Part shown: positions 36,470 to 53,966 of the stretch, in pieces | Position numbering within the stretch: the first letter of the stretch is position 1 | Layout: the number at the start of each line of letters is the position of its first letter | Origin: Verrucomicrobium spinosum DSM 4136 = JCM 18804 | Lineage (GTDB): Bacteria > Verrucomicrobiota > Verrucomicrobiia > Verrucomicrobiales > Verrucomicrobiaceae | Reading direction: 5' to 3' | Assembly (NCBI RefSeq): GCF_000172155.1 | Contig: NZ_ABIZ01000001.1 | Coordinates: forward strand, 5,489,105-5,553,104 | Length of the DNA: 64,000 nucleotides | Program-made: the position numbers and the translations under genes | The notes under the pieces: generated by a model | Database searches by the model: none | Told to the model about the DNA's origin: nothing | The model's input: the letters and a program-made list of their open reading frames with translations, nothing else

Positions 36470-36473
36470 GGCC

Positions 36474-37298: not shown

Positions 37299-37322
37299 TG
37301 CAATGCGATGTCTATAAACAAA

Positions 37323-37349
37323 TGCGCCCCGCAGAATCTGCGGGGCGCA
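37323..37349 (-). terminator. intrinsic terminator between secY and map
   Basis: A perfect 12-bp stem, TGCGCCCCGCAG/CTGCGGGGCGCA with a 3-nt loop, is followed in the minus direction by TTTGTTTATAG. It lies 16 nt after the secY stop and 24 nt before the map start. It should end or attenuate the ribosomal operon transcript. Confidence 0.85.
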
Positions 37350-37365
37350 ATCAATTTGGCAAAAG

Positions 37366-38871
37366 TTATTTGCCGTGGAAGATCGCGAACGATACCCCAA
37401 TCAGGGCAATTACCGCGATAACGGTCCAAAGCATCACCACCAGTTTCGGATTGGCGGCGATACCACCGGACTGACCCGGACGGTCGAAACGACCGCGAAT
37501 CTTGCCCTTGCGGAGGAAACCGTCGTAGTGGCGTTGCAGCAAGTGGGTTTCTACTTGGCGCATCATGTCGAGCACCACACCCACAAGGATCAGGATGCTC
37601 GTACCACCGAAGAACTGGCTCACGCGAGGATCCAGGTTGACCTGCTTTTGCAGCAGCATCGGGAAAACGTAGATCAGGGTCAGGAACAAGGCACCGGCGA
37701 AAGTGAGGCGGCTCATGGTGAAATCCATGAAATCAGCCGTCGGCTTCCCAGGGCGAACTCCGGGAATATAGCCACCGCTCTTCTTGAGATCTTCCGCAAT
37801 CTGGTTTGGCTGGAACATCGTCGCCACCCAGAAGTAGCTGAAGAAGAAGATCAGAGACGTGGAGATGACCACATAAGGAGTACCGCTGGTCAGCCATTCC
37901 GCCCACTGGCGCACACTGGCGACATCCGGGAAAAGGAAGCTGATGATCTGGGAGGGGAAGAGCACGATCGCCTGGGCAAAGATGATGGGCATCACGCCTG
38001 CATAGTTCACCTTGAGCGGCATGTACTGAGTCTGCCCGCCGTACACTTTGCGGCCCACCACGCGCTTGGCGTACTGGATCGGAATGCGGCGCTGGGCCTG
38101 CGTGAGGGCGATGATGCCTGCGATCACGACGATGAGGAGAGTGATGAGCCCCAGCAATGTCAGTGCATCCATGGCACCGGCACCTTCGCGACCGATGTAG
38201 GTCTTCCACACACGCACCAGGGCGCCAGGGAGTTCAGCCACAATGTTGATACAGATCAGAAGCGACACACCGTTGCCGATGCCGCGTTCAGTGATTTGTT
38301 CGCCGAGCCACATGATGAACAAGCTGCCCGCCGTCATGGCAAACACAGCTGGAATCACAAAGCTCCAGAATCCATAGTCAGGCACCAATGGGCCATACTT
38401 GCCCATGATCTCCTCAAGACCGTGCAGGAAGATGTTTTGTCCCGGGTTCTTGAGTGAGACAGCAAGCAGATAGCCCTGGAACACACAAAGACCAACCGTG
38501 GCAAACCGAGTCCACTGGTTGATCTTCTGGCGTCCACCGTCCTCACGGGAGAGCTTGCTGATGCTAGGCACGACCGCGGTCAGCAGCTGCATCATGATGC
38601 TGGCGCTGATGTAGGGCATGATCCCCAAGGCAAAAATCGCACAGCGCTCCAGACCGCCACCGCTGAACACATTCAACAAAGCCGCAGCTGCAGCAAAGGG
38701 TGAGGCAGACGCCTCTGCCTTGCTGTCAATCCACGCCTGTAGCACGTGGGGATTCACACCCGGCAGCGTGATCGCATAGCCGATGCGCACAATGACGATC
38801 ATGGCCAGTGTGTAGAGGATGCGTTGGCGCAGATCCGGTATTTTGAAGATGTTGACGAAAGCGGAGATCAT
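37366..38871 (-). CDS. secY: SecY preprotein translocase subunit
   Basis: The protein has 501 residues, longer than the usual ~440. It starts MISAFVNIFKIPDLRQRILYTLAMIVIVRIGYAITLPGV and has the ten-helix SecY pattern, including ALGIMPYISASIMMQLL, the GIGNGVSLLI block, and AIPFVGRxxx-like cytosolic loops. Extra length comes from a ~15-residue Ala/Ser-rich insertion after helix 1 and a longer tail. It forms the channel of the Sec translocon. It is the final gene of the ribosomal run, as usual. Confidence 0.97.
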   Translation of the reverse strand: MISAFVNIFKIPDLRQRILYTLAMIVIVRIGYAITLPGVNPHVLQAWIDSKAEASASPFAAAAALLNVFSGGGLERCAIFALGIMPYISASIMMQLLTAVVPSISKLSREDGGRQKINQWTRFATVGLCVFQGYLLAVSLKNPGQNIFLHGLEEIMGKYGPLVPDYGFWSFVIPAVFAMTAGSLFIMWLGEQITERGIGNGVSLLICINIVAELPGALVRVWKTYIGREGAGAMDALTLLGLITLLIVVIAGIIALTQAQRRIPIQYAKRVVGRKVYGGQTQYMPLKVNYAGVMPIIFAQAIVLFPSQIISFLFPDVASVRQWAEWLTSGTPYVVISTSLIFFFSYFWVATMFQPNQIAEDLKKSGGYIPGVRPGKPTADFMDFTMSRLTFAGALFLTLIYVFPMLLQKQVNLDPRVSQFFGGTSILILVGVVLDMMRQVETHLLQRHYDGFLRKGKIRGRFDRPGQSGGIAANPKLVVMLWTVIAVIALIGVSFAIFHGK

Positions 38872-38898
38872 GATGTGAGGTCGTGTCTTAAAATAGCA

Positions 38899-38925
38899 AG
38901 CGACTCAGGACAAAGCTGAGCCGCT
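38899..38925 (-). promoter_or_regulatory. hairpin between rplO and secY (possible attenuator)
   Basis: AGCGACTCAG and CTGAGCCGCT form a 10-bp stem with one G-U pair in the minus-strand RNA and a 7-nt loop. TTGCTATTTT follows in the minus direction. It could lower transcription into secY or stabilise the upstream mRNA end; the U-run is weak. Confidence 0.4.
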
Positions 38926-38964
38926 CGCGAAGAACATTGATGTAACCTGGCCGCAAGGCAAGGT

Positions 38965-39414
38965 TTATGCGGTCAGAGTTACCGTGCCGCCAGCCTTTTC
39001 AATCTTCTCTTTGGCGGAGGCACTGATCTTGTCCACCTGGACGGTCAGTTTACGCTCCACAACGCCGTCGCCGAGAATCTTCACCACGTCGCAACGGCGC
39101 TTCACCAGACCCACATCACGAAGGGACTGCTGGTTCACCACTGCGCCGTCGTCGAAACGGCCATCAAGGTCACCGACATTGACCACTTCCGTGATGTCAC
39201 GGAACTGGGTGTTGTTGAAACCCTTCTTGGGAAGCCGACGGTGAAGGGGCATCTGGCCACCTTCAAAGCCAGGGCGAATCGCGCCGCCGGAGCGTGCTTT
39301 CTGCCCCTTGTGTCCACGGCCTGAAGTCTTGCCGTGACCCGAGCTCTCACCGCAGCCAACACGCTTGCGGCGGTGCTTGGCCCCGGGCTGGGGTTTAAGG
39401 TTGTGCAGTCTCAT
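38965..39414 (-). CDS. rplO: 50S ribosomal protein L15
   Basis: The protein has 149 residues. MRLHNLKPQPGAKHRRKRVGCGESSGHGKTSGRGHKGQ and the GFEGGQMPLHRRLPKKGF block are diagnostic. It follows rpsE directly; the rpmD (L30) gene usually between them is missing, since only 36 nt separate the two. Confidence 0.98.
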   Translation of the reverse strand: MRLHNLKPQPGAKHRRKRVGCGESSGHGKTSGRGHKGQKARSGGAIRPGFEGGQMPLHRRLPKKGFNNTQFRDITEVVNVGDLDGRFDDGAVVNQQSLRDVGLVKRRCDVVKILGDGVVERKLTVQVDKISASAKEKIEKAGGTVTLTA

Positions 39415-39450
39415 AGTCTTAATCTAAGGGTATAGGTTGCCGGGCGGACC

Positions 39451-39990
39451 TTAGAGAGCAGCTTTCTCAGCCACTTTCTTGCCGCGCATCTTGAGGATTT
39501 CATCAGGAAGGCGCAGAGCAGCAAGAGCCGCCAGGGTTGCCTTCACCACGTTGGCGTGGTTGCTGGAGCCAAAGGACTTCGCAAGGACGTCCTTGATGCC
39601 AGCCGCTTCACACACTGCACGCACACCGCCACCGGCGATGATGCCCGTACCAGGGGAGGCGGGCTTGAGCAGTACGCGGCCACCGCCATGTTCACCCATC
39701 ACTTCGTGCGGGATGGTGGCGTTGAGAATGTTGACCTTCACGAGATCCTTGCGGGAAGATTCCGTCGCCTTCTTGATTGCGTCGGACACCTCGTTGGCTT
39801 TGCCGAAGCCGAAGCCTACTTTGCCCTGGAGATCGCCAGCCACCACGAGGGCGCTGAAGCTGAAGCGACGACCACCCTTCACGACCTTGGCGCAGCGGTT
39901 GATGAAAACCACCTTCTCGGACATGTCGGAACGGGACTCGGATTCCTGACGCTGATTGCCGCCCCGGGGGTTCCTGTTAAACGTTGCCAT
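39451..39990 (-). CDS. rpsE: 30S ribosomal protein S5
   Basis: The protein has 179 residues. The S5 core begins [27 protein letters not shown] and continues with [17 protein letters not shown] and the [26 protein letters not shown] block. The first ~22 residues are a basic/polar extension; an internal Met (MSEKVVF) is an alternative start. It lies 17 nt after rplR. Confidence 0.98.
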
Positions 39991-40007
39991 AGTGTTGCGA
40001 GTGATGA

Positions 40008-40364
40008 TTAGAACTGAAGACCCTTGGCGCGCGCGGCATCAGCCAGCGCTTTGACTTTGCCGTGAAAGAAGAAACCGCCGCGGTCGAACACCACGCTCGT
40101 GATGTTCTTCTCAAGAGCGCGTTCAGCGATCGCCTCACCCACCTTGGTGGCGTTGGCCACGTTGGCGGCTTTGGAAGCAAGCGCCGCTTCGATCGTCGAA
40201 GCCGACACAATCGTCTTGCCCTCGTCATCATTGATGAGCTGGGCGTACACGCGTTGATTGGAGAAATGAACCGCGAGACGGGGGCGCTCGGCCGTCCCCC
40301 GAAGGGTCTTGCGAATACGGGCATGAACGAGGCGCCGGATCGCTTTGCGTTTGATGGTAGCCAT
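40008..40364 (-). CDS. rplR: 50S ribosomal protein L18
   Basis: The protein has 118 residues. [37 protein letters not shown] and the final [20 protein letters not shown] block match L18, which binds 5S rRNA. It lies 21 nt after rplF. Confidence 0.98.
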
Positions 40365-40385
40365 GATGTGTCTCTGCGAAATGGG

Positions 40386-40922
40386 TTACTTGACGCTCTT
40401 GCCTTCCTTGCGGCGGACGTGTTCGCCCACATAACGCACACCCTTGCCCTTGTAAGGCTCCGGCGGGTAGTAGCCGCGGACGTCAGCGGCGAACTGGCCG
40501 ACGACCTGCTTGTCGATGCCTTCCACGCTGATCTTCGTGTTCTCATTCACCGTAACCTTGAGGCCCTGGGGAATGGGGTGAAGCAGCGGGTGGGAATAAC
40601 CGAGGCTCAAGTCCAGATTGGAACCCTTGACGGCGGCACGGAAGCCCACGCCCTGGATTTCGAGGTCCTTTTTGAAGCCAGTGCTCACACCGTGGACCAT
40701 GTTGCTGATCAGACGCTGGGCCGTGCCATGGAGGGCACGCACGCGGCGGTCTTCAGAAGCGCGGGTCACAGCCAGAGACTGGCCGTCCTGTTGAAGAGTG
40801 ATGCCTTCGGGGAGAACGTAGTCAAGCTTGCCCTTGGGGCCCTCGACGTGCACGTTGTTGCCAGCGATCTTGACGCTGACTTTGTCCGGAAGTGCGATGG
40901 GTTGTTTACCTACTCGTGACAT
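40386..40922 (-). CDS. rplF: 50S ribosomal protein L6
   Basis: The protein has 178 residues. MSRVGKQPIALPDKVSVKIAGNNVHVEGPKGKL opens the protein and the C-terminal YYPPEPYKGKGVRYVGEHVRRKEGKS is the second repeat's rRNA-binding end. It lies 18 nt after rpsH. Confidence 0.98.
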   Translation of the reverse strand: MSRVGKQPIALPDKVSVKIAGNNVHVEGPKGKLDYVLPEGITLQQDGQSLAVTRASEDRRVRALHGTAQRLISNMVHGVSTGFKKDLEIQGVGFRAAVKGSNLDLSLGYSHPLLHPIPQGLKVTVNENTKISVEGIDKQVVGQFAADVRGYYPPEPYKGKGVRYVGEHVRRKEGKSVK

Positions 40923-40940
40923 GATTCAGTTCCTCCTCAC

Positions 40941-41339
40941 TTACCAGACTTTTGCCAGCAGCTCGCCGCCGACATTTGCTTTGCGCGCTTTCGCGCCCGT
41001 CATCACACCCTTGGGTGTGGAGAGAATGGTGATACCCAAGCCACCCAGAACGCGGGGGACATCGTCCACACCCACATAGTGGCGCAGACCGGGCTTGCTC
41101 ACACGCTTCACATCAGTGATGGCAGGAGTCTTGCCCTGGTACTTGAGTTTCACCTGGATCTGGGGCTTGCCGTCATTCGGCTGCACCTCGTAGGACCAGA
41201 TGTAGCCTTCTTCCTGAAGGATACGGGCGACTTCCGCCTTGATCTTGGAGTACGGCGCGCTTGCACCTTCCTTGGCAGCGCGGCTCGCATTCTTGATGCG
41301 GGTGAGGAAGTCGGAAATGGGGTCGGTCAGAACGCTCAT
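40941..41339 (-). CDS. rpsH: 30S ribosomal protein S8
   Basis: The protein has 132 residues. DPISDFLTRIKNASRA opens it and the C-terminal GLGITILSTPKGVMTGAKARKANVGGELL is diagnostic. It follows rplE after 29 nt; rpsN (S14), usually between these genes, is missing here. Confidence 0.98.
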   Translation of the reverse strand: MSVLTDPISDFLTRIKNASRAAKEGASAPYSKIKAEVARILQEEGYIWSYEVQPNDGKPQIQVKLKYQGKTPAITDVKRVSKPGLRHYVGVDDVPRVLGGLGITILSTPKGVMTGAKARKANVGGELLAKVW

Positions 41340-41368
41340 TTTATTGGCCTGGGTCTTGAAATAATTGA

Positions 41369-41953
41369 TTAGGCAGCCGCCATGTCAGGGGTATCCGCCT
41401 TGTTGCCGCCTTTCGCGCGGAAGGGCATGCCGAGGCAGCGAAGCAGCTCACGGGCATGGTCGTCATTGCTGGCGTCAGTCACAAAGGTGACGTCAAAGCC
41501 CAGGGAGCGCTTGATCTTGTCGAGCTCGATCTCAGGGAAAATGGACTGGTCGGCGATGCCGAGCGTGTAGTTACCCCGACCGTCAAAGGCGCGGCCAGAG
41601 ATCCCACGGAAGTCACGAATGCGCGGAATCGCGGTGCGCACCAGGCGCATCATGAAGTCATACATCTTCACGCCGCGGAGAGTCACTTTAACTCCGATAG
41701 CCTCACCGGCGCGCAGCTTGAAGTTGGCGATTGCCTTCTTGCTGAAGGTCACAATCGGCTTCTGACCGGTGATCAGGACGATTTCCTTCACCGCGTCTTC
41801 GACTGCCTGTTTGCGGTCGGCTTCTTTGCCGACGCAGCAGTTGATGACAATCTTTTCAAGTTTCGGCACCTGATGAATGTTCGTCAGGCCGAGCTCCTTG
41901 TGCAGATGCGCGATGACTTTTTCCTTGTATAGCGTTAACAATTCTGGCTGCAT
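41369..41953 (-). CDS. rplE: 50S ribosomal protein L5
   Basis: The protein has 194 residues from the ATG at 41953 (MQPELLTLYKEKV). KLEKIVINCCVGKE, FSKKAIANFKLRAGEAIGVKVTLRG and the RDFRGISGRAFDGRGNYTLG block match L5. A frame extending to 42022 is rejected because it adds 23 unrelated residues. A short C-terminal tail (GGNKADTPDMAAA) is extra. Confidence 0.98.
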   Translation of the reverse strand: MQPELLTLYKEKVIAHLHKELGLTNIHQVPKLEKIVINCCVGKEADRKQAVEDAVKEIVLITGQKPIVTFSKKAIANFKLRAGEAIGVKVTLRGVKMYDFMMRLVRTAIPRIRDFRGISGRAFDGRGNYTLGIADQSIFPEIELDKIKRSLGFDVTFVTDASNDDHARELLRCLGMPFRAKGGNKADTPDMAAA

Positions 41954-42031
41954 GATAATGACACCCTGGTTGGTTTCACACCCCGCGACCCCACAGTGAG
42001 GCCGCGAATACGGGGCTGGCAAATTGCCTGG

Positions 42032-42274
42032 TTATTTCTTCTTTTCAACAAGTTTCACATTCGAAATGTGAATTGGGCCTTCGCGCTCGATAATGCCGCC
42101 CTGGGGCTTGTCCTGCGAAGGACGGACAGCTTTCTTGATCATGCGCACGCCCTCGACGAGGACCTGATTCTTCTTGGCAACGACCTGAAGAACATTGCCC
42201 TGGGATCCCTTGTGGGCCCCGCTGGTGACCTCCACAAGGTCGCCTTTATTGACGTGTGTTTTGATTCTGCTCAT
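42032..42274 (-). CDS. rplX: 50S ribosomal protein L24
   Basis: The protein has 80 residues with the KOW core [27 protein letters not shown]. Its start overlaps the rplN stop as ATGA (42271-42274), which suggests coupled translation. Confidence 0.97.
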
Positions 42275-42639
42275 AGCACTTCGGGTGCGAGGGAAACGAT
42301 TTTCATGAAGTTGCGGTCGCGCAGTTCACGGGCCACTGGGCCAAAGATGCGGGTGCCGCGGGGGTTGTTGTCCTTGTCAATGATGACGATCGCGTTCTTG
42401 TCGAAGCGCAGGATCGAGCCATCATTGCGGCGGATCGGGGCGGCGGTGCGGACCACAACGGCCCTGACCACTTCACCCTTCTTCACCTGGGCGGTGGGGG
42501 TTGAGACACGGACGTGGGCGGTGATGATGTCCCCCACCCCGGCTGTGCGCTTGTTCTTCTTGCCGATGACGCCAATCATCTCGGCCATACGCGCGCCAGT
42601 ATTGTCGGCGATCGCGATTTCGGATTCCATCTGCAACAT
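42271..42639 (-). CDS. rplN: 50S ribosomal protein L14
   Basis: The protein has 122 residues. [26 protein letters not shown] and [28 protein letters not shown] are diagnostic. It is immediately upstream of rplX. Confidence 0.98.
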
Positions 42640-42698
42640 AAGCTGATCCTCCTTGGGTTGGTAAAGTTACCTGATTCGACGGGAATGCCCTGCGCCGC

Positions 42699-42980
42699 TT
42701 AGTGGGCCAGAACTTCGACCAGCTTCCAGCGCTTGAGCTTGCTCAGCGGACGGGTCTCCTCGATGCGCACCTTGTCGCCAACCTTGGCCGTGCCTTCCTC
42801 ATCGTGGGCGTAGAACTTGGAGGTCATGCGGACGATCTTCTTGAACTGGGGGTGAGGCACGCGGCGCTCCACCTCCACCACGATCGTCTTGGACATCTTG
42901 TTGGACACAACCTCACCCACGCGGGTCTTGCGGACTGGTGCCTTGGTTGCGGCGGTTTCGTTAGCGGTCACTTCGCTCAT
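42699..42980 (-). CDS. rpsQ: 30S ribosomal protein S17
   Basis: The protein has 93 residues. After a ~17-residue Ala/Thr/Glu-rich leader comes [34 protein letters not shown] and [23 protein letters not shown], the S17 OB-fold. It lies 25 nt after rpmC. Confidence 0.97.
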
Positions 42981-43005
42981 CTTTCAGGGTCTCCCTTTAA
43001 TTTGG

Positions 43006-43311
43006 TTACTCCGCGGCTTTCTTCGCGGATTTCGTGGCAGGGGCCTTCTTGGCCGCCGCTTTCTTTGCTGCCTTGGGCTTTGCAGCCGGGGCGGCGTCCG
43101 TTGACTTCTTGCCAACGGTCAGGTTCAGACGGCGCTCAGACAGGATGGTCTCCATCCGAGCCACGTCGCGACGTGCCTGCTTGAGACGGGAGGGGTTCTC
43201 CAGTTGGCCGCTGGCCTGCTGGACACGCATGTTGAGCGCGTCCTGCTTGAGTTCGCGGCGCTTTCCGCCGACTTCCTCGTTGGTCAATTCGCGAAGTTCT
43301 TTGATCTTCAT
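43006..43311 (-). CDS. rpmC: 50S ribosomal protein L29 with Ala/Lys-rich tail
   Basis: The protein has 101 residues from the ATG at 43311 (MKIKELRELTNEEVGGKRRELKQ). Residues 1-65 are L29, including NPSRLKQARRDVARMETILSER. The last ~35 residues are an Ala/Lys-rich extension with repeated AAKK, longer than usual L29 (~65 residues). L29 lies near the peptide exit tunnel. The upstream in-frame start at 43344 is unlikely because it overlaps the end of rplP-side sequence. Confidence 0.93.
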   Translation of the reverse strand: MKIKELRELTNEEVGGKRRELKQDALNMRVQQASGQLENPSRLKQARRDVARMETILSERRLNLTVGKKSTDAAPAAKPKAAKKAAAKKAPATKSAKKAAE

Positions 43312-43347
43312 ATCGTCGCTTCCTGCGCTATCTCTAATGGTCAACGG

Positions 43348-43767
43348 TTAGTGCATCGCCTGACGCGTTACGAAGCGCGTGCGAACCCCAAGTTTGTTTG
43401 CTGCCAGGCGGCAGGCGTCACGGGCAAGAGCCTCGCTCACACCAGCCACTTCGAAGAGCATCGTGCCGGGGTAAACCACTGCCACCCAGAACTCCGGTGC
43501 CCCCTTACCTTTACCCATTCGGGTTTCCGGCGGACGAGCGGTCACGGGCTTGTGCGGGAAAATACGGATGTACACGGAGCCTTTGCGCTTGAGATGGCGG
43601 GTGATCGCCACACGGCAGGCTTCGATTTGCGTGTTCTTGATCCAGGCGCGCTCAAGGGTCTGAAGACCGAACTCGCCGTAGCTGACCTTGTTTCCTACGG
43701 TCGCATTCCCGGCGCGGCTTCCGCGGTGGGTCTTGCGATGCTTAACTCTGCTGGGCAACATTGCCAT
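43348..43767 (-). CDS. rplP: 50S ribosomal protein L16
   Basis: The protein has 139 residues. [18 protein letters not shown] near the start, [38 protein letters not shown] and the [19 protein letters not shown] block match L16. The first residues are MAMLPSRV, so the second Met (43761) is an equal start choice. Confidence 0.97.
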
Positions 43768-43825
43768 AACTAAATTCCTCCAAAGGGTTGCTGATCGTTA
43801 GTCTTGTAAACTCGGTCCTGCCGGA

Positions 43826-44644
43826 TTAGGCCTGCTCAGGAGCCGGTGCTGGCGCAGGTGCAGGTGCGGACTGGCGCTCACCGCCACGGTCACCGCCACC
43901 ACCACCACGACGGTCTCCACCGCCACCGCCACCACGGCGGTCCCCGCCACGGTCACCGCGATCACCACGCGGGCGGCGCTCACGGTCGTTGCGACGCTCG
44001 GCCTGGGGAGCGCCTTCCACTTCTGGCTTGCGGTTCAACCAGCACTTCACGCCGATGATTCCGTAAACGGTACGAGCTTCGGTGAAGCCGTAGTCGATCG
44101 GGATACGAAGGCTCTGAAGAGGCACCTTGCCCTGACGGTATTGCTCAGCACGGGCGATGTCAGCACCACCGAGACGACCGGCGCAACGGATACGAATGCC
44201 GTCGGCACCCATGTCCATGGCGGTCTGCACAGCACGCTTCATGGCACGACGGAAGGAAATACGACGCTCAAGTTGAGTCGCCACAGTCTCCGCTACCAGC
44301 TGGGCATCCAGCTCAGGCTGCTTGATCTCGATGATGTCGATCTTGACCTGCTTGCCGCCGCACATCTTGGAAATCTCGACGCTCATCACTTCGATTTCCT
44401 GGCCTTTGCGACCAATCACCAGACCCGGACGGGCGGTGTGAAGCGTCACACGGACGAGGTTCCACGCACGCTCAATCACAATCTTGGCGAGAGCGGCGGA
44501 GGACAGCTTGCCCTTGAGGTAGCTGCGAATTGCCAGGTCGGCGTGAAGGAAGTCGGCAAACTCTTTTTCCGGAGCGTACCACTTGGAGCGCCAGTCTTTG
44601 GTGACGGCGAGGCGGAAACCGATTGGATGAACTTTCTGACCCAT
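43826..44644 (-). CDS. rpsC: 30S ribosomal protein S3 with Arg/Gly-rich tail
   Basis: The protein has 272 residues. The core is normal: GQKVHPIGFRLAVTKDW, RTARPGLVIGRKGQEIE (KH domain) and DIIEIKQPELDAQLVAETVATQLERR. After about residue 217 the tail is an Arg/Gly/Asp-rich region with many RGG/DRGG repeats, ending in an Ala-Pro repeat (APAPAPAPAPEQA). Usual S3 is ~210-240 residues. The tail is likely disordered and RNA-binding. Confidence 0.97.
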   Translation of the reverse strand: MGQKVHPIGFRLAVTKDWRSKWYAPEKEFADFLHADLAIRSYLKGKLSSAALAKIVIERAWNLVRVTLHTARPGLVIGRKGQEIEVMSVEISKMCGGKQVKIDIIEIKQPELDAQLVAETVATQLERRISFRRAMKRAVQTAMDMGADGIRIRCAGRLGGADIARAEQYRQGKVPLQSLRIPIDYGFTEARTVYGIIGVKCWLNRKPEVEGAPQAERRNDRERRPRGDRGDRGGDRRGGGGGGDRRGGGGGDRGGERQSAPAPAPAPAPEQA

Positions 44645-44678
44645 AGCTTTGTGATTCGTTGGTGGTTCGGACGGGCGG

Positions 44679-45068
44679 TTACTTGGCCTCGGCCTTGGCG
44701 GCTTTCGCTGCCTTCGGCTTCTTCTCCGCCTCCGCTTCTTTGGCGGCGAGGATGAGAGTGATGTGGCTCATGCGCTTTTTGATGCCGCCGGCGGAACCGC
44801 GGGCGCGGGGCATGATTCGCTTCAGCACCGGACCCTTGGTGGCCGTGGCGCTTTTGACGAAAAGTTCGTCCGCATCCATCTCGTGGTTGTTTTCAGCATT
44901 GGCCACTGCGGAACGCAGGGCTTTGCCAATGAGGAGAGCGGCTTTCTTCGGGGTGAAGTTCAACACGCTGAGTGCCTGAGAAACCGGCATCCCCTGAATG
45001 GCACGGGCCACTTCCCGGGCTTTCTGGTCGGAGATTCTCGCGTATTTGAGGACGGATTTTACTTCCAT
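44679..45068 (-). CDS. rplV: 50S ribosomal protein L22 with Ala/Lys-rich tail
   Basis: The protein has 129 residues. MEVKSVLKYARISDQKAREVARAIQGMPVSQALSVLNFTPKKAALLIGKAL and the C-terminal RIMPRARGSAGGIKKRMSHITLIL match L22. The final ~18 residues (EAEKKPKAAKAAKAEAK) are an Ala/Lys-rich extension. It begins 14 nt after the coiled-coil gene. Confidence 0.97.
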   Translation of the reverse strand: MEVKSVLKYARISDQKAREVARAIQGMPVSQALSVLNFTPKKAALLIGKALRSAVANAENNHEMDADELFVKSATATKGPVLKRIMPRARGSAGGIKKRMSHITLILAAKEAEAEKKPKAAKAAKAEAK

Positions 45069-45082
45069 GACGTTGCTTCGTG

Positions 45083-45868
45083 TTAACCTTTCATTGCTTC
45101 CACCTTACCGGTGTCGCCGACTTTCACAGGTTCTGCCTTGTTGATCAGCTCTTGAACAACTGCGCCGCAGATGCCGCTGCGGACATCCACCACCACGGCG
45201 CGGGCGATGGGTTTGTCCTGACGATAAAGAGAGAAGGGCATCCCAGGATGCACGCCGTGCCTGGAGCCCACGTTGAGAATGGCGATGCCCAAATCATCCT
45301 TCAAGCTCACCACTCGGGCGTTCTGAAGGTCGGCTACCGCTGTTTCGCCTTGATCCTTGAGAGAAGCCAGCGCACGATCTGCCGCGGCCAGTTTCTCTGT
45401 CAGGTTTATCTTGGCTTCCGGTGCCAGATTCACATTCGAGCTGACAACGCCCGATGCAGCCTCTGATAGACCGGTGAGGGCGCCCTGAAGCGCCCGTTTT
45501 TGGGTTTCGAGAAGTCGCAGATCACTCAGGGCGGTCAGCATCCGCTCACGAAGCACGGCATCCGTGGCGTCGAGTGCGGCAATACCGAGGCCCTCCATCT
45601 GCACGCGCAGCTTTTCATAAGCTTCGCGCACCTGCTGGCTTTCCCCGTTTGCAGCCGCAAGGCTCTCAGACAAGGAGTTGATCTGATCTTTCGCTTTCGT
45701 CAGGCGCGCCTCCAGATCGGCGATCTGGGTGGCGGAGACCTGAAGGGTGGCACGGGCCTCCCGGATCTCCAGAGCCTCTCTCGACTGCCCCGGAGCCTGG
45801 CCAGCGCCCGCCAACACCACCAGAAGTGGTGCGGCAGCGAGGTTCAGTATGGGGGCTCGAAACTGCAT
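45083..45868 (-). CDS. exported coiled-coil protein of unknown function inside the S10 operon
   Basis: The protein has 261 residues. It starts with a probable signal peptide or anchor (MQFRAPILNLAAAPLLVVLAGAG, cleavage near GQS). Residues ~30-190 are strongly helical with heptad-like spacing (ATQIADLEARLTKAKDQINSLSESLAAA). The C-terminal ~70 residues form a beta-rich domain (LGIAILNVGSRHGVHPGMPFSLYRQDKPIARAVVVDV) like the small barrel found in FlgT-type and other coiled-coil envelope proteins. It sits between rpsS (50 nt upstream) and rplV (14 nt downstream) in the same direction, so it must be cotranscribed with ribosomal genes. I do not recognise a named family; an envelope function is inferred. 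Confidence 0.75.
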   Translation of the reverse strand: MQFRAPILNLAAAPLLVVLAGAGQAPGQSREALEIREARATLQVSATQIADLEARLTKAKDQINSLSESLAAANGESQQVREAYEKLRVQMEGLGIAALDATDAVLRERMLTALSDLRLLETQKRALQGALTGLSEAASGVVSSNVNLAPEAKINLTEKLAAADRALASLKDQGETAVADLQNARVVSLKDDLGIAILNVGSRHGVHPGMPFSLYRQDKPIARAVVVDVRSGICGAVVQELINKAEPVKVGDTGKVEAMKG

Positions 45869-45918
45869 GAGGCGTCTGAAAGTCGGGATCGGAGAGGACC
45901 AGGAGTCGGACTGACCGG

Positions 45919-46197
45919 TTACTTGGAAACCTTGGCGGTGTGCGCACCGTGACCTTTGAAGGTACGGGTGGGTGAGAATTCACCCAGGCGGTGACCAACC
46001 ATGTTTTCCGAAACATACACGCTCACGAAGTCCTTGCCGTTGTGCACCAGAAAGGTGTGACCAACAAAGTCAGGCGTGATCATGGAGCTGCGGGCCCAGG
46101 TCTTGATAGGGCGCTTCGCGCCGGTCTCATTGAGCTGGTCAATCTTCCAGAGGAGTTTCTGGTTGACGAAAGGTCCTTTTTTAAGTGAGCGTCCCAT
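45919..46197 (-). CDS. rpsS: 30S ribosomal protein S19
   Basis: The protein has 92 residues. [68 protein letters not shown] are diagnostic. rplV, which usually follows it, is displaced by the coiled-coil gene. Confidence 0.98.
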
Positions 46198-46237
46198 GGT
46201 AAGAGGAGGGCTGAATCAGTAAGTTTCTAAGTTGCAG

Positions 46238-47074
46238 TTACTTGCCTTTGCGGCCCTGCACGATGAGACGGTTGGAGTACTTGCGCTTTTTGCGGGTCTT
46301 CTGACCCTTCGCATGACCCCAGGGGCTGAGCAGGTGCTGGCGACCACCACCGGACTTGGAGCGACCTTCACCACCACCGTTCGGGTGGTCGATGGGGTTC
46401 ATGCACATACCGCGAACGGTCGGGCGAACACCCTGCCAGCGAGTACGGCCGGCTTTGCCGCTGACCACGTTCATGTGTTCCACGTTGCCCACCTGACCGA
46501 TGGTTGCAAAACACACCGCAAGGATCTTGCGAATCTCACCGGAGGGAAGACGCACGAGGGCGAAGTCACCTTCACGGTTGGAAAGGATGGCTGCCTGGCC
46601 AGCGGAGCGGGCAATCTGGCCACCTTTGTTCGGCGTGATCTCGATGTTGTGAATCTGCGTACCAAGAGGAATTTTGCTCAGAGGAAGAGCATTGCCCACT
46701 TCCGGAGCCGCTTTTTCACCGGCGACAACCTTGGCACCCACTTCGAGTTTGGCAGGAGCAAGGATATAGCTCTTCTGGCCGTCGGCGAATTGGATGAGGG
46801 CGATGCGGGCGGAGCGGTTCGGATCGTATTCGATGCCAACCACGGTGGCGACGTCGTCACGACGGGAGCGCTTGAAATCAATGAGCCGGTACCGACGCTT
46901 GTGACCACCACCAATGTGGCGGCACGTGATGCGTCCGGTGTTGTTGCGACCACCGCTCTTGCGGAGGGCCACCGTGAGATTCGGCTCCGGGGTGCTCTTG
47001 GTGATTTCCTCAAAACCAGGCCACTGCTTGTAGCGGTTCGAGGGCGTGTTGGGCTTGTAAGTAGTAAGAGCCAT
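46238..47074 (-). CDS. rplB: 50S ribosomal protein L2
   Basis: The protein has 278 residues. [23 protein letters not shown] near the start and the peptidyl-transferase-centre segment [21 protein letters not shown], with its conserved His, are diagnostic. It lies 40 nt upstream of rpsS. Confidence 0.98.
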
Positions 47075-47118
47075 AACGCTGGGTTTAAAAATAGGTTGGC
47101 GGTTGCTCGGGCCGTCGG

Positions 47119-47403
47119 CTAGGCGAGTTCAATCTTCTCGCCGTCTTTGAGCCGGACGACGGCTTTCTTCCAGTGATTGGTGCGGCCAAAGTCGGCGCGA
47201 CGTTCGCGCTTCTTCTTGCCGGCGTAGTTCATCGTGCGGACGCCGACGACCGTTTTGCCAAAGATCTTCTCAACAGCCTGCTTGATCTCAAGCTTGTTGG
47301 CGCGGGGATCCACGTTGAAGACGTACTCATTGAGAGTTTCGCCAAGAACGGTGGCCTTTTCGCTCAACCGGATGGTCTTGATAACTTGATAAAGGTCTTT
47401 CAT
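47119..47403 (-). CDS. rplW: 50S ribosomal protein L23
   Basis: The protein has 94 residues from the ATG at 47403 ([20 protein letters not shown]). [36 protein letters not shown] is the L23 core that contacts SRP and trigger factor at the exit tunnel. The longer frame to 47484 overlaps rplD and is rejected. Confidence 0.97.
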
Positions 47404-47404
47404 G

Positions 47405-48013
47405 TTAGGCAGTCCTCCGGGCGATGGTTTCAAGGGCAGCGCCCGAGATGATGATCTTGTCGTAAGCGAGCAGGTGCTCGGCATTCACGTCGGTGGCGGC
47501 CATAAGCTGCACGTTCTGGACGTTGCGACCGCTGCGGAATGTCAGTTCGTCAAAGCTGTCAGCGAGCACCAACACCTTGCGGGCGTCGGTCAGGCCAGCG
47601 ATGGCGGCGACAAAGCTCTTGGTCTTGCCATCGGAAACCTGGAAGTCAGCCGTGACCAGCACATCTCCGTCGTTGATCCGGGAAGTGAGCGCCGTGCGGA
47701 AAGCAAGCGTCTTCACCTGACGGGGAATCTTCTTGGAGTAGTCGCGGGGCTTGGGACCCCAGACCACGCCACCACCACTCCAGATCGGGGAGCGGGCGCT
47801 GCCCATACGAGCGCGGCCTGTTCCCTTCTGCTTCCAGAGCTTTTTGCCACTGCCGGCAACTTCATTGCGCGACTTCGTGGAGGCGTTACCCTGGCGGCGG
47901 TTGGCGCGGTAGGCGATGATGGTGTCATGCAATGCGTGGGCACCCTTGCGGCCCTCCACCACTTGCACGTTGGCCTGCTTGGCCGCGTCGATCGTTAATA
48001 CATTCGATGCCAT
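47405..48013 (-). CDS. rplD: 50S ribosomal protein L4
   Basis: The protein has 202 residues. The RQGNASTKSRNEVAGSGKKLWKQKGTGRARMGSARSPIWSGGGVVWGPKPRDYSKKIP segment is the tunnel loop of L4. In many bacteria L4 also represses the S10 operon. It stops 1 nt before rplW. Confidence 0.98.
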   Translation of the reverse strand: MASNVLTIDAAKQANVQVVEGRKGAHALHDTIIAYRANRRQGNASTKSRNEVAGSGKKLWKQKGTGRARMGSARSPIWSGGGVVWGPKPRDYSKKIPRQVKTLAFRTALTSRINDGDVLVTADFQVSDGKTKSFVAAIAGLTDARKVLVLADSFDELTFRSGRNVQNVQLMAATDVNAEHLLAYDKIIISGAALETIARRTA

Positions 48014-48034
48014 GATGACTGCACTCCTTTCAAA

Positions 48035-48673
48035 TTACTTCTTGGTCTGCTTCTTGATAGCAGGACGGACGATGACATAGCTGCCATTCGGTCCGGGAAC
48101 GGCGCCCGCGATCAGGAGCACGCCGTCTTCGGCACGGCTCTGGACCACTTTGAGATTTTGCGTCGTGCGACGGTCGAAACCATGACGCCCGGGCATCTTC
48201 TGGTTCTTCCAAACACGCCCTGGGGTCAGACGGCAACCGATGGAACCAGTCCGGCGGTGCATCATGGAACCGTGCGATGCGGGCTGGCCCTTGAAGTTGT
48301 AACGCTTCACAACGCCGGAGAAACCCTTGCCCTTGGTGGTGCCGATCACATCGACATACTCACCGTCAGCAAATTTGTCTGCACCGAGGGTGGAACCGGC
48401 TTCTGGTGCCTCCCCTTCCGTGCGAAACTCGCGAACCACATACTTGGCCGTGGCGTTGTGCTTCTTGAAGTGCTCGAGCTCCGGTTTGGAGCAGCGATTT
48501 TCCTTCTTTTCGCTATAGCCAACTTGCACGGCGGTATAGCCGTCCTTGTCTGCGTTCTTGACCTGGACAACCTGGTTGCCGGCCACGTCAATCACCGTCA
48601 CAGCGACGGCGCTGCCGTCCTTGAGGTAAACCTGGGTCATCCCCACTTTTTTGCCAATCAATCCGATGCTCAT
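48035..48673 (-). CDS. rplC: 50S ribosomal protein L3
   Basis: The protein has 212 residues. It opens IGLIGKKVGMTQVYLKDG, and the FSGVVKRYNFKGQPASHGSMMHRRTGSIG and GRVWKNQKMPGRHG loop reaches the ribosome core. The methylated Gln of L3 lies in the GQPASHG block. Confidence 0.98.
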   Translation of the reverse strand: MSIGLIGKKVGMTQVYLKDGSAVAVTVIDVAGNQVVQVKNADKDGYTAVQVGYSEKKENRCSKPELEHFKKHNATAKYVVREFRTEGEAPEAGSTLGADKFADGEYVDVIGTTKGKGFSGVVKRYNFKGQPASHGSMMHRRTGSIGCRLTPGRVWKNQKMPGRHGFDRRTTQNLKVVQSRAEDGVLLIAGAVPGPNGSYVIVRPAIKKQTKK

Positions 48674-48696
48674 GGATGGTAATCCTCAGGTGTGAC

Positions 48697-49005
48697 TTAG
48701 ATGCGAATGGTGATGTCCACGCCGGACGGGAGGTTGAGCTTCTTGAGCTCGTCCACGGTGCGGGCGGTCGGGTCAACGATGTCCAGCAAGCGCTTGTGCG
48801 TGCGGATTTCGAAATGTTCGGACGACTTCTTGTCCACGTGCGGTGAGCGGTTCACGTTGAACTTCTCAATGCGCGTCGGAAGAGGGATAGGTCCCGCGAC
48901 TTTGGCGCCGGTGCGCTTGGCGGTCTCGACGATCTCGGCCGTGGACTTGTCCAGGACGCGATAGTCATAGGCGCGCAGGCGGATTCTGATGCGTTGGCTT
49001 TGCAT
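48697..49005 (-). CDS. rpsJ: 30S ribosomal protein S10
   Basis: The protein has 102 residues. [29 protein letters not shown] and [36 protein letters not shown] are diagnostic. It follows fusA after 37 nt; tuf, often between these, is not here. S10 is also NusE. Confidence 0.98.
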
Positions 49006-49042
49006 GATGGGTACTCCCGCTGGTTGAAATATTGGTTGTTAA

Positions 49043-51199
49043 TTAGGCCTTCTTGCCACCGCGCTGCTCAACGATCTGGTCCACGATCTGTTGCGGCACC
49101 TGGTCGAAATGGGACGGCTGCATCGAGTAGGATGCGCGACCGCTGGAGAGCGTGCGAATCGTCGTGCTGTAGCCGAACATTTCAGCCAGCGGCACTTCGG
49201 CCTTCACGATGCTCATATTGTTGCGGCTGTCGATCGCGGTGATACGACCGCGTCGGCGGTTGATGTCACCCATGATGTCACCCTGATACTCCTCAGGAGT
49301 GGTAGCCTCGACTGCCATGATGGGCTCCATCATGATACACTTGGCCTTCTTCAGAGCGTCTTTGACGGCGAAGATGGCCGCCATTTTGAAGGCGTTTTCG
49401 TTGGAGTCCACTTCGTGGCTGGATCCGTCCAGAATGTCCACGTGAATGTCCACCACTTCGTAGCCAGCAATGATGCCATTGTGCATGGCTTCATTCACGC
49501 CAGATTTACAGGCGTTGATGTATTCCTTTGGAATCGTGCCGCCGACCACCTTGTTTTCCACCGTGATGCCCTTGCCGCGCTCGGAAGGGAACACCTTGAG
49601 GATCACGTGGCCATATTGACCACGACCACCGGACTGCTTGACGAGTTTGCCTTCGCCGTCGGCTTCCTTGGTGAGGGTTTCACGGTAAGCGATTTGGGGA
49701 GCGCCGGCGTTGGTGTCCACCTTGAACTCACGCAGCATACGATCGCGCAGAATTTCGAGGTGAAGCTCACCCATGCCAGCGATGATCGTCTGACCGGTCT
49801 CTTCGTCCGTACGGACCACGAAAGTCGGGTCCTCGTCGGAAAGGCGCTGGAGGGCCATGGCCATTTTCTCCTGGTCGCCTTTGGCCTTGGGTTCCACGGC
49901 CATGGAGATGACCGGCTCTGGGAACGACGGGGGCTCAAGCAGAATGTCGTAATCATCTTCGGCGAGAGTGTCGCCCGTCGTAACATTCTTGATGCCGACC
50001 ATGGCAGCGATGTCACCGGAATAACAGCAGTCGATGTCCTTGTGCTGGTTGGCTTGAATCTGAATCAAGCGGCCCACGCGCTCGGTTTTGCGGGTGCGGG
50101 GGTTGTAAACAACGTCGCCTTTTTTAACGCAGCCGGAGTAAACTCGGAAGAACACCAGTTTGCCGACGAACTTGTCGCTCCAGAGTTTGAAAGCGAGGGA
50201 GACGAATTTTTCGCCATCGTCCGGGCGGGCTTCAATTTTGACCGCATCTTCGTCGGCGCTCTGCCCCTGGGCAGCCGGGATGTCGAGCGGGCCGGGAAGA
50301 TAATCAACCACGGCGTCCACAAGGTACTGAACACCTTTGTTCTTGAAGGCGGAGCCACCAGCCATCGGGATGATCTTGAGTCCGATGACGGCGCGGCGGA
50401 GAGCCTGCTTCACATCCGTGACGCTGATCGGCTTCTCTTCGAGGAACATCGTGCCGATTTCATCGTCCACGTTGCAAAGCTCTTCGACCAGTTCGTCGTA
50501 AGCCTGGTTGGCAAGGTCAACCTGGTCACCTTCAAGTTCACGAACCTCATAGGTGGAGCCGAACTTGTCATCGTCAGAGAAAATGACGGCCTTCTTGTTT
50601 ACCACGTCGATTTGGCCGCGGAGATTGTCCTCAGCACCAATCGGGATCAGGATCGGCCAGGCGTTGGCACCCAGCTTGGTACGCACATCTTCCACCACGC
50701 GCTGGAAGTTGGCACCGGTACGGTCCATCTTGTTTACGAAGGCGATGCGAGGCACACCATACTTCTCAGCCTGACGGTAAACCGTCTCGGACTGGGGCTG
50801 CACACCGGCCACGCCGCAGAGCACGAAGATGGCTCCGTCAAGAACACGCAGGGAACGCTCCACCTCGGCCGTGAAGTCCACGTGGCCGGGGGTGTCGATG
50901 ATGTTGATGCGGATGTCCTGATTTTCGAACAGTTTGACCGTGTCCTTACCGGGGAGCTGCTTCCACTTGGTGGTCACAGCGGCGGAGGTGATCGTGATGC
51001 CGCGCTCTTTTTCCTGCTCCATCCAGTCCGTGGTGGCTGCACCGTCGTGCACCTCACCGATCTTGTGGATCATCCCGGTGTAGAACAAGATACGCTCAGT
51101 CAGCGTAGTCTTGCCGGCATCAATATGGGCGCAGATGCCGATGTTGCGGGTCCGCTCAAGCGGGTACTCGCGGTTGGGGGAATTCGGATTGGCGGACAT
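49043..51199 (-). CDS. fusA: elongation factor G
   Basis: The protein has 718 residues. The GTPase motifs are AHIDAGKTT near residue 24, DTPGHVD and NKMDRTGAN, with the EF-G signature region and domain IV ([19 protein letters not shown]). It ends in the normal domain V ([22 protein letters not shown]). EF-G drives translocation and ribosome recycling. It follows rpsG after 56 nt. Confidence 0.98.
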
Positions 51200-51255
51200 G
51201 AGTCAAAGATCAGGTGAAGAGGACGAACGGCGTACTGAGGAAACAACAGGACCGA

Positions 51256-51729
51256 CTACCAGCGGAAGTGGGCGAAGGCGCGGTTGGCCTGGGCTTGCTT
51301 GTGCACGTCATCACGCTTGCGGATGGCGTTACCCTGGTTGGTGGAAGCATCACGCAGCTCGTTGGCGAGGGCGCGGTGCATCGGAGTGCCTTTGCGGGAG
51401 CGGGCGAAGTTGACGATCCAGCGGAGCGCCATGGCTTCGGACCGGGCCGGGGCCACTTCAAGCGGCACCTGGTAGGTCGCACCGCCCACGCGGCGGGCTT
51501 TAACTTCCACACGGGGCTTGGCGTTCTCGATCGCACGGGTCACCAGCTCAAGCGGGTCCACTGCGTCGCTGTTCTCATTCAGGGCATCGATCGCGGCATA
51601 CACAATGCGCTCGGCGAGGGACTTCTTGCCACCCACCATGATTTTGCTGATGAGGTGAGCGACCAACTCGCTGTCATAGCGGGAGTCTTTGCTGACCGGC
51701 TTGTCGAAAACGCGTTTCCTGCGGGACAT
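51256..51729 (-). CDS. rpsG: 30S ribosomal protein S7
   Basis: The protein has 157 residues. MSRRKRVFDKPVSKDSRYDSELVAHLISKIMVGGKKSLAERIVYAA and the KTFAHFRW-type end (NRAFAHFRW) match S7, which nucleates the 30S head. In many bacteria S7 represses this operon. Confidence 0.98.
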   Translation of the reverse strand: MSRRKRVFDKPVSKDSRYDSELVAHLISKIMVGGKKSLAERIVYAAIDALNENSDAVDPLELVTRAIENAKPRVEVKARRVGGATYQVPLEVAPARSEAMALRWIVNFARSRKGTPMHRALANELRDASTNQGNAIRKRDDVHKQAQANRAFAHFRW

Positions 51730-51776
51730 GGTAATTTAGCTGCTAAAGATTAAAAAGGCAGAGAAAAAGGACGGGC

Positions 51777-52184
51777 TTACTTCTTGCCCTTGCCAGCGGC
51801 GGCGGCTTGACCCGGCTTCGGACGCTTGGCACCGTACTTCGAGCGACCACGGCGGCGCTTGTCCACCCCAAGGCAGTCCAGCGTACCGCGAACGATGTGG
51901 TAACGGACACCAGGCAAATCCTTTACTCGGCCGCCGCGAACGAGGACGATAGAGTGCTCCTGGAGGTTGTGCCCTTCACCACCGATATAGGCGATGACCT
52001 CAAATCCGTTGGTCAAGCGCACTTTGGCAACCTTACGCAAAGCCGAGTTCGGCTTCTTGGGCGTTCTGGTCATCACCTGCAGACATACACCACGACGCTG
52101 GGGGCAGTTCGCAAGCGCGGGTGACTTTGATTTGACCGCTTTATCCTTGCGGCCATGTCTCACGAGTTGGTTGATGGTGGGCAT
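51777..52184 (-). CDS. rpsL: 30S ribosomal protein S12
   Basis: The protein has 135 residues. [24 protein letters not shown] and [26 protein letters not shown] are diagnostic. Lys in PKKPNS and KDLPGVRYH-type residues linked to streptomycin binding are wild-type in form. It is the first gene of the str-S10-spc block. Confidence 0.98.
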
Positions 52185-52538
52185 ACGATGTCAAAGAAGT
52201 TTTCACGTTCGCCATCAGTCGCGATACGGAAAGACACGTCACCCTTGTATTGTGCGCATCTTATCCGGAGCAGCTTCCGATAGGAAGACCCGCCGAAGCG
52301 GGCCTTGAAACCGTCCCGCGGTTGGCGGGACTAGGATTGTGGGAGCGCAGATGCTACAGAGGTTTCAAAAACACGCAACCTCTTTTTTCGAGTTTTCTCC
52401 CCTTTGAGTTCGATTTCGGCATCTTTTTTCTGGTTTGAGAACGGTTATTTGCCCTTGCAGCCCGTATCATCCCCCACCAGCCTAGCTTTGTCAGTTTTTT
52501 CGCTCCCTTCACCCACAACCTTTATCAGTTCCCAGCAC
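52185..52538. promoter_or_regulatory. divergent promoter/leader region with two tandem GC hairpins
   Basis: This gap separates rpsL (minus) from the TPR gene (plus) and holds no gene. In the rpsL leader RNA there are two hairpins: GTCCCGC/GCGGGAC with a 5-nt loop (52313-52331) and CCCGC-TTCG-GCGGG, a UUCG tetraloop (52289-52302). A possible minus-strand promoter is TTGCGT, 16 nt, TAGCAT further upstream (about 52341-52368). A leader control site for the ribosomal operon is plausible but unproven. Confidence 0.45.
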
Positions 52539-53945
52539 GTGAAGCTGCTTCCCATCGGTTACTCCGCTCTCGCATTCCTTGCCTGTGCTGGCCTCAGCCT
52601 CGCCCAGACGGCAGGTGAGTTGATTACTCAAGGCGTTGACGCTCAACGCAAGGGCAATCCAGATCTCGCCATCACCCACTATACCTCAGCCCTGGCCAAG
52701 GGCTTGGATTCCCGGTTCGAAGCGATCGTCCTGCAGAATCGTGCTCTCGCCTGGGTGGAAAAGCTCTCCTGGCAAAAAGCCATCGCGGATGCAGACGCCG
52801 CTTTAAAAATCAATCCGAGCTCTGCCACCGCTTTTGCCGTTCGCGCTGAGGCACGAAAAGGTTTGCGCGAAATTGACCGGGCCATTCTCGACTACAGCGA
52901 AGCCATCAAGCTTGAACCCGGCGACCCCATTTATTTAAACAACCGGGGGAATCTCTTCGACGGACAACAAAAATGGGACCTCGCTCTTCAAGATTTCGAC
53001 AACGCCCTCAAGATCCAGCCCCGTTACGCCCACGCTTTGGCCGGTCGGGGGGAGGCGCGCCGGAATCTTGGTCAGTATGAGAAGGCCCTGGAAGACTTCA
53101 ATGCCTCCATTGAACTGGACCCCAAGAACCCGGGCGCGTACAACAATCGCGGACTGACGCAGGCCAGCCTCGGCAAACGTGAGGAAGCCCAAGCTGACTT
53201 CAACAAGGCCATCGATCTGCTGCCCAATTTCGCCCCGGCCTACAACAATCGCGGCTTCAACTACGCGAGCTTGGGCCGCACCAAGGACGCTCAAACAGAC
53301 TACAATCAAGCCCTCAAGATCGACCCCGCCTACACCCCTGCTCTCAACAACCGCGCCATGCTGCGCGTGGCAGAAGGTTCCCTGAAGGACGCCATCGCCG
53401 ACTTTTCAGAGATCATCCGCCTGCGTCCGGACAATGTTCACGCCTACAACAATCGCGCTGCCGCTTATGACAAGGCGGGCCAGCCGGAAAAGGCCCTCGC
53501 CGATCTGGACACCGCCATCAAGCTGGCCCCCCAAGACGGGCAGACTCACAAAAACCTTGCGATCGCCTACGTCAACCGGGGCCGCTGGGACGAAGCACTT
53601 AAGGAGTTTACCACTGCTTCCTCTCTCCTTCCCGAAGATGTGGAAACCTGGAACTGGTTGGGCCGCCTGCTTGGCTCCCATCCCCAGAGCGATCTCAGAG
53701 ATGGAGCCAAGGCCGTCCAGGCAGCGACCAAGGCCTGTGAGTTGAGCGGCTGGAAGAACGCAGATTGCATCGACACGCTCGGAGCCGCGCACGCCGAGGC
53801 AGGTGATTTCGAGAACGCGAAAAAGTTCGCCCAACAGGCGCTCGCTGACCCCAATGTGCCAGCCCCCACCCGTCAGAGGATGGAGCGTCGCCTGAGCCTG
53901 TACCTGCAGGGGCTGCCCTACCACATCCCCGCAGTTCCACGATAA
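52539..53945 (+). CDS. secreted or envelope TPR protein
   Basis: The protein has 468 residues from the GTG at 52539, which starts a clean signal peptide (VKLLPIGYSALAFLACAGLSLAQ); a TTG at 52404 would put 45 unrelated residues in front. It is almost wholly TPR: about 11 repeats of the GxxYxNRGxxxAxxGxxxxAxxDFxxAIxLxP form, with YNNRG repeated several times. TPR proteins scaffold protein complexes; no catalytic domain is present. It diverges from the ribosomal operon. Confidence 0.85.
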   Translation: MKLLPIGYSALAFLACAGLSLAQTAGELITQGVDAQRKGNPDLAITHYTSALAKGLDSRFEAIVLQNRALAWVEKLSWQKAIADADAALKINPSSATAFAVRAEARKGLREIDRAILDYSEAIKLEPGDPIYLNNRGNLFDGQQKWDLALQDFDNALKIQPRYAHALAGRGEARRNLGQYEKALEDFNASIELDPKNPGAYNNRGLTQASLGKREEAQADFNKAIDLLPNFAPAYNNRGFNYASLGRTKDAQTDYNQALKIDPAYTPALNNRAMLRVAEGSLKDAIADFSEIIRLRPDNVHAYNNRAAAYDKAGQPEKALADLDTAIKLAPQDGQTHKNLAIAYVNRGRWDEALKEFTTASSLLPEDVETWNWLGRLLGSHPQSDLRDGAKAVQAATKACELSGWKNADCIDTLGAAHAEAGDFENAKKFAQQALADPNVPAPTRQRMERRLSLYLQGLPYHIPAVPR

Positions 53946-53966
53946 GCCGAGCTTCCGGCTCCAGCC

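Follow-up and report, generated by a model that had tools for sequence, protein, structure and literature searches.

What is a gene for a predicted exported protein doing between rpsS and rplV, inside the S10 cluster, whose gene order is one of the most stable in bacteria? The question is raised by a stretch of 64,000 nt from Verrucomicrobium spinosum DSM 4136 (hereafter the window), in which an open reading frame separates these two ribosomal protein genes. We use the label EMB for this gene of a predicted exported coiled-coil and beta-barrel protein. A preliminary description made from the sequence had given the protein 261 residues and counted 50 nt from rpsS to the gene and 14 nt from the gene to rplV, and all three values are correct. 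It had also called the gene inserted in frame with the operon; EMB does share the strand of its neighbours, but the phrase can mean the same strand only, since every gene has its own reading frame. The features considered here are as follows, in coordinates of the window; neighbouring genes were named by eye from their translations.

45083..45868, minus strand: EMB, open reading frame with an ATG start, 261 aa
45785..45868, minus strand: predicted N-terminal hydrophobic export signal of EMB, about residues 1-28 (sequence)
45344..45784, minus strand: predicted helical coiled-coil rod of EMB, residues 29-175 (AlphaFold model)
45092..45322, minus strand: predicted C-terminal beta-barrel domain of EMB, residues 183-259 (alignment, AlphaFold, structural matches to FlgT)
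45919..46197, minus strand: rpsS, 50 nt upstream of EMB
44679..45068, minus strand: rplV, 14 nt downstream of EMB, conserved neighbour across the phylum
43826..44644, minus strand: rpsC, next after rplV, used as yardstick for vertical inheritance

The host genome, a single contig of 8,220,857 bp, holds one full-length copy of EMB. Other non-ribosomal genes are found in the same ribosomal gene cluster of the window, namely secY and map (also named by eye). These encode widespread translation and secretion factors, whereas EMB is predicted to encode a lineage-specific envelope protein. Among the matches listed from the open literature, EMB was not described in any title or beginning of an abstract. 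For the PVC signature protein CT421.2, PMC3444138 gives lengths from about 53 to over 80 aa.

Conservation of EMB within its family

EMB was found in 61 of the 68 genomes of its own family, two of the matches (G003 and G055) being weak, and in 46 of 47 when good-quality genomes are considered. The order rplB, rpsS, EMB, rplV, rpsC was recovered by tblastn at 30 of 30 loci, taken from the best 30 of the 61 matching genomes, with partial matches for rpsC at one locus (L023) and for rpsS at another (L024). Across these loci the identity of EMB falls to about 43%. Close loci from named genomes include those of Verrucomicrobium sp. BvORR034 (97% protein identity) and Verrucomicrobium sp. BvORR106 (90%). 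Both rpsS and rplV surround EMB at 41 of 44 loci from named Verrucomicrobiota genomes, whose species overlap largely with those of the 30 family loci; the remaining three lie at contig ends, one without rplV and two without rpsS. Pairwise dN/dS values of 0.05-0.19 relative to four loci (L003, L004, L005 and L010) indicate that the protein is under purifying selection.

Distribution across Verrucomicrobiota

Families, loci and genomes are designated below by the codes f, L and G, respectively. Of 288 Verrucomicrobiota genomes, 102 were matched by a profile built from the EMB proteins of the family, and 277 had an rpsS match. We selected 100 rpsS regions for family diversity among the matches listed, and in many families a protein-coding ORF with a hydrophobic start was found inside the rpsS-rplV gap. 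At one locus per genome, EMB was present at 64 of the 112 loci with a placed rplV (30 families) and absent from 48, with 22 of 52 families yielding negative loci only. These counts exclude 37 loci without rplV. EMB was found at 43 of 85 loci with rpsS upstream and at 21 of 27 that contain no rpsS. One locus counted as negative (L156, genome G318, family f14) has an rpsS-rplV gap of 552 nt with no recognisable homolog, and perhaps holds a decayed or very divergent gene.

We then considered an even sample of the phylum comprising 115 genomes, with rplV located in 112, in which every match to the C-terminal domain was compared with every rplV. The domain was found directly upstream of rplV and on the same strand in 61 of the 112 genomes and 20 of 33 families, the domain match ending 25-136 nt before the rplV match. 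The sensitivity of this count is favourable because many of the sampled genomes also contributed rows to the profile, and the independent test is that of the held-out profiles described below. The association is present throughout some families (14/14 genomes in f2, 4/4 in f3, 4/4 in f30), mixed in others (2/9 in f5, 10/19 in f16, 6/10 in f21), and absent from f4 (0/4), f7 (0/2), f17 (0/4), f19 (0/3), f22 (0/3), f23 (0/6) and f24 (0/3). Since 51 of the 112 genomes lack the link, EMB is dispensable or replaceable. The preliminary description had allowed for a recent accident of a single strain; the family counts, the 30 syntenic loci and the phylum-wide sample reject this and point to an old insertion, common to much of Verrucomicrobiota.

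The same description took the rpsS-rplV junction to be normally tight, and we tested this in one outgroup, Omnitrophota. rplV was found in 58 of 58 Omnitrophota genomes and we read 31 loci (the best 30 of the 58 rplV matches and one further locus, L235). Among the 29 measurable loci the gap ranges from 0 to 274 nt and is at most 70 nt in 24. No match to EMB was obtained at these loci by tblastn with a single query, and the short gaps argue more strongly for its absence. In Verrucomicrobiota with rpsS and rplV together and without EMB, the gap is at most 43 nt at 29 of 42 loci.

Homology and inheritance

The candidate ORFs had first been picked by eye, and for this reason we rebuilt the profile of the C-terminal domain 30 times, omitting one family each time, and searched the 4,985 stop-to-stop ORFs of all loci. 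The held-out profiles recovered the ORF upstream of rplV at 61 of 61 loci from 30 families with E values of 6.5e-13 or better; the runner-up ORF at each of these loci, if one was listed, had an E value of 2.0 or worse. In a FastTree phylogeny of 84 C-terminal domains (91 columns), rooted by choice on the Omnitrophota copies, 66 rplV-linked and nine relocated tips group apart from nine non-linked paralogs with a local support of 0.81. EMB belongs to this rplV-linked orthologous group both by the position of its domain directly upstream of rplV and by its clustering apart from the paralogs. Domain distances were correlated with those of RpsC across 61 loci (Mantel r of 0.70, relative to a maximum of 0.149 in 2000 permutations), and the correlation was 0.615 for pairs between families only.

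These patterns fit a mostly vertical inheritance of EMB, with losses and with relocation in one genus of family f16 (g62). In this genus EMB lies away from rplV: it follows an RND-transporter-like ORF at three loci (L271, L279 and L280), it is near RecN- or phosphoesterase-like ORFs at L266-L268 (all named by eye), and L269, L270 and L282 also hold copies away from rplV.

Loci where rpsS and rplV are apart

In 37 of the 100 rpsS regions no rplV follows rpsS; in 32 of these regions the reading extended 1.5 kb or more past rpsS, and in the other five the contig stops within 0.7 kb of it. The separation was seen at L160-L188 and at some of L061-L154, these loci belonging to families f16, f21, f22, f26, f27, f32, f40, f41 and f42. 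Most of the genomes with separated genes are drafts, and in six (G216, G073, G252, G183, G187 and G113) a single contig carries both genes at distant positions. The rpsS/rplV junction is thus a place where the S10 operons of Verrucomicrobiota split.

A search for rplV in 30 genomes succeeded in 29, and two of the 29 loci (L169 and L173) still have rpsS upstream. This set is biased, since fifteen of the genomes had been picked for an earlier match to the EMB profile. EMB is directly upstream of rplV in 12 of these fifteen, the others being G239, G319 and G341, the last without an rplV match. Among the other fifteen, EMB is upstream of rplV in 11 (G216, G073, G183, G128, G122, G119, G310, G145, G198, G288 and G092) and not in four (G252, G113, G090 and G142). 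With 12 of 15 and 11 of 15 genomes, respectively, EMB mostly stays with rplV when rpsS is elsewhere, the first figure coming from the pre-selected genomes; the count of 21 in 27 loci without rpsS given above is subject to this selection as well. The constant partner of EMB is rplV rather than the rpsS-rplV junction, and their adjacency is usable as a synteny marker. At one locus (L272 of G213, positions 1262-2458), TatA/TatC-like ORFs, named by eye, lie directly upstream of the EMB-rplV segment.

Predicted architecture and fold

The N-terminus of EMB is hydrophobic and has no lipobox cysteine. AlphaFold predicts helices at residues 29-100, 103-143 and 150-175, followed by six strands within 184-256. 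The model of the whole protein has low confidence (mean pLDDT of 69.3, pTM of 0.32), whereas the last 88 residues modelled alone reach a pLDDT of 90.6 and a pTM of 0.81. This domain carries the motifs G..GV..GM.F, DVR and GD. The sequence and the models agree with the earlier prediction of an exported coiled-coil protein with a small beta domain: a hydrophobic N-terminus, a helical rod and a barrel.

This organization is found across the family of proteins, although its proportions vary. Among the 64 rplV-linked proteins the median length is 247 aa (range 112-402), the coiled coil is variable in length, and the forms from f3, f5 and f9 are short (112-124 aa), with a signal and a barrel and no coiled coil. 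Using a threshold of at least 1.6 on the Kyte-Doolittle scale for a 15-mer within the first 80 residues, 58 of the 64 proteins present a hydrophobic N-terminal stretch, whereas an internal control stretch reaches the threshold in 2 of 54. Three of the others (L013, L041 and L182) have a weaker stretch that falls below this threshold, and three (L135, L174 and L186) have none in the ORF as called, all three with TTG starts. A lipobox-like motif occurs in five of the 64 and is convincing by eye for L128 and L173 only.

Scans of EMB with Pfam and NCBIfam models gave weak matches, the majority of them to coiled-coil families; none reached the curated cut-off listed for it. Those of 40 homologs gave scattered weak matches. 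A phmmer search of EMB against PDB sequences returned one coiled-coil match (E value of 0.15). In structural comparison, the best matches of the barrel model are 8z5n, an LPHT ring entry (Z of 11.6, rmsd of 2.5, 81 residues aligned), and 3w1e, FlgT (Z of 11.2, rmsd of 2.8, 83 residues aligned), followed by the barrels of F1-ATPase with Z scores from 10.1. We infer that the 8z5n chain matched is FlgT. With the whole model, 8z5n leads (Z of 11.3), and F1-ATPase (10.7) and 3w1e (10.6) are tied. In the Foldseek lists for the whole model, the MreC structure 2j5u ranks fourth (E value of 1.3e-3) and MreC structures are found at ranks 4, 7, 11, 21, 26 and 30, as well as at rank 34 for the domain. Because F1-ATPase barrels also match with Z scores of about 10, the fold does not fix the function of EMB.

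MreC and FlgT are among the closest known proteins. MreC, the rod-shape scaffold (PF04085), has an N-terminal membrane anchor or signal, a coiled coil and a periplasm-facing beta barrel, as predicted for EMB. MreC has two beta domains after the coiled coil, however, and its gene adjoins mreB/mreD; the EMB model has one barrel (six strands in the last 86 residues) and the gene lies beside rpsS and rplV. The 21 Pfam families that match EMB at an E value of 1 or less do not include PF04085, and a separate MreC above the Pfam cut-off is present elsewhere in the genome (E value of 1.4e-36). Two of the 40 homologs weakly match NCBIfam models of MreC, with a best E value of 4.7e-4. The C-terminal domain of FlgT, from the flagellar H/T ring (PF16538), provides the top structural matches, but the FlgT_C profile scores EMB at 16.4 bits, below the curated cut-off of 27, and the neighbours of EMB are ribosomal genes. 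The profile tests therefore rejected the identification of EMB with either protein.

Expression of EMB

The gaps surrounding EMB are short: the median is 21 nt between rpsS and EMB (at most 60 nt at 42 of 43 loci) and 14 nt between EMB and rplV (at most 60 nt at 52 of 64 loci). A weak consensus scan found no promoter-like site in positions 43300-47600, where 0.8 would be expected by the scan. Both EMB junctions lack a terminator-like site, and a single weak match on the minus strand lies inside EMB. No Rfam match was found in positions 36000-56000 and no unusual fold at the EMB junctions. The gene thus presents no sign of a promoter and terminator of its own in these scans, which the preliminary description had regarded as fatal to its idea of growth coupling. 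The short gaps and the absence of a detectable promoter or terminator make it likely that EMB is co-transcribed with the ribosomal genes. A Shine-Dalgarno motif is missing before EMB, but we did not use this as evidence because it is also missing before rpsS, rplB, rpsL, rpsG and fusA.

Relative to the 20 translation genes of the window, each left out in turn, the codon adaptation index of EMB is 0.518, below all 20 (0.567-0.829) and similar to that of map (0.529) or the ORF at 35705 (0.508); the index of secY is 0.631. Codon usage of EMB is therefore ordinary and not of the ribosomal kind. Synonymous divergence of EMB is 2.71 to L005 and 2.07 to L010, values above 2 being near saturation, compared to 0.78-1.32 for its neighbours. 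The low codon adaptation and the dS above that of the neighbours suggest that codon selection on EMB is weak. We read these data as steady transcription with modest translation. They speak against EMB being made like a ribosomal protein, and are still compatible with an output proportional to growth. The relocation in f16 g62 and the 51 of 112 genomes without the link indicate that coupling is not obligatory. The earlier claim that the protein is made in step with ribosomes is therefore unsupported, and growth coupling of EMB is unproven.

Possible explanations for the association with rplV

With moderate confidence, we regard EMB as an envelope scaffold of ancient origin that is probably transcribed together with rplV and made at modest levels. 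Early in the history of Verrucomicrobiota, an orthologous group would have been set directly upstream of rplV and then, to judge from synteny, held-out profiles, the tree and co-variation with RpsC, mostly inherited vertically with the rplV-rpsC segment. The short gaps, with no promoter or terminator detected, suggest that the gene is carried on an rpsS-rplV, or rplV-headed, ribosomal mRNA, and the sequence suggests that the protein is exported through its N-terminal signal or membrane anchor. The coiled coil may oligomerise and hold the C-terminal barrel at a distance; the barrel, by its fold, might bind another envelope protein, as is thought for the barrels of MreC and FlgT. The place in the operon would give steady, growth-linked transcription, and ordinary codons would keep the output well below that of ribosomal proteins. 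A bolder reading, which we consider unlikely, makes EMB an organiser similar to MreC. Its supply, delivered by way of the rplV segment, would set wall or envelope growth in proportion to translation capacity; the rplV link would then have persisted despite the parting of rpsS and rplV because envelope growth is tied to translation.

Alternatively, EMB could be a passenger by inertia, kept beside rplV because cutting an essential operon is costly, with a function unrelated to growth rate or ribosomes. This is possible but somewhat doubtful. The ordinary codon usage and high dS would be expected of a passenger, as would the absence of the gene from tight junctions in many lineages and its relocation in f16 g62. 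In contrast, the link to rplV mostly survives the separation of rpsS and rplV, where the gene could part from rplV. Moreover, the tight junctions without EMB suggest precise removal, and therefore retention in 61 of 112 genomes hints at some benefit. The position of an exported product directly upstream of rplV, at a median gap of 14 nt and also at loci without rpsS upstream, is reminiscent of SecM, which precedes secA and whose translation and export regulate the downstream gene. A cis-acting export sensor of this type, regulating the rplV segment through the translation or export of EMB, is nonetheless very improbable: conservation lies in a predicted folded barrel and not in a C-terminal arrest sequence, the C-terminal tails vary and show no conservation in the alignments, the junctions present no unusual fold, and purifying selection acts over the whole gene. 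There is likewise little to recommend the idea that EMB is MreC or FlgT misplaced in the S10 operon, which would account for the similar architecture, the barrel fold and the weak matches of two homologs to MreC models but conflicts with the separate MreC of the genome, the profile results and the single barrel. Finally, a ribosome- or translocon-related role, for instance in membrane secretion, might explain why EMB so often adjoins rplV, with secY in the same ribosomal gene cluster; we give it a very small chance, since a periplasm-facing product would not touch ribosomes and no nucleic-acid- or ribosome-binding family was matched above its cut-off.

The insertion is a phylum-level one, kept mostly by vertical descent, and this uncharacterised, predicted exported protein provides a testable candidate for coupling between envelope and ribosomes in a phylum that includes Akkermansia.

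Domain copies away from rplV

Beyond the rplV-linked group, 77 of the 138 domain matches in the even sample lie away from rplV, in 57 genomes. The V. spinosum genome itself holds three further copies of the domain (L285, L286 and L287; C1:998476-1000107 and 2829621-2829875), two of them in tandem. At two Omnitrophota loci (L233 and L234) we found a distant protein of 384 aa, anchored and with a coiled coil, whose C-terminal domain is of the EMB type. These PVC paralogs, from V. spinosum and Omnitrophota, resemble EMB in architecture and have a homologous C-terminal domain, but they are not beside rplV and fall outside the rplV-linked group in the tree. The Omnitrophota protein lies between ROK/NagC-like and LacI-like genes, as judged by eye. 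Paired domain matches less than 1 kb apart are also found in f2 genomes (e.g., G091, G094, G100 and G179). In several genomes (G074, G120, G121, G109, G165 and others), domain matches away from rplV contain one TAG, TAA or TGA, and these stops may be gene ends or signs of decay.
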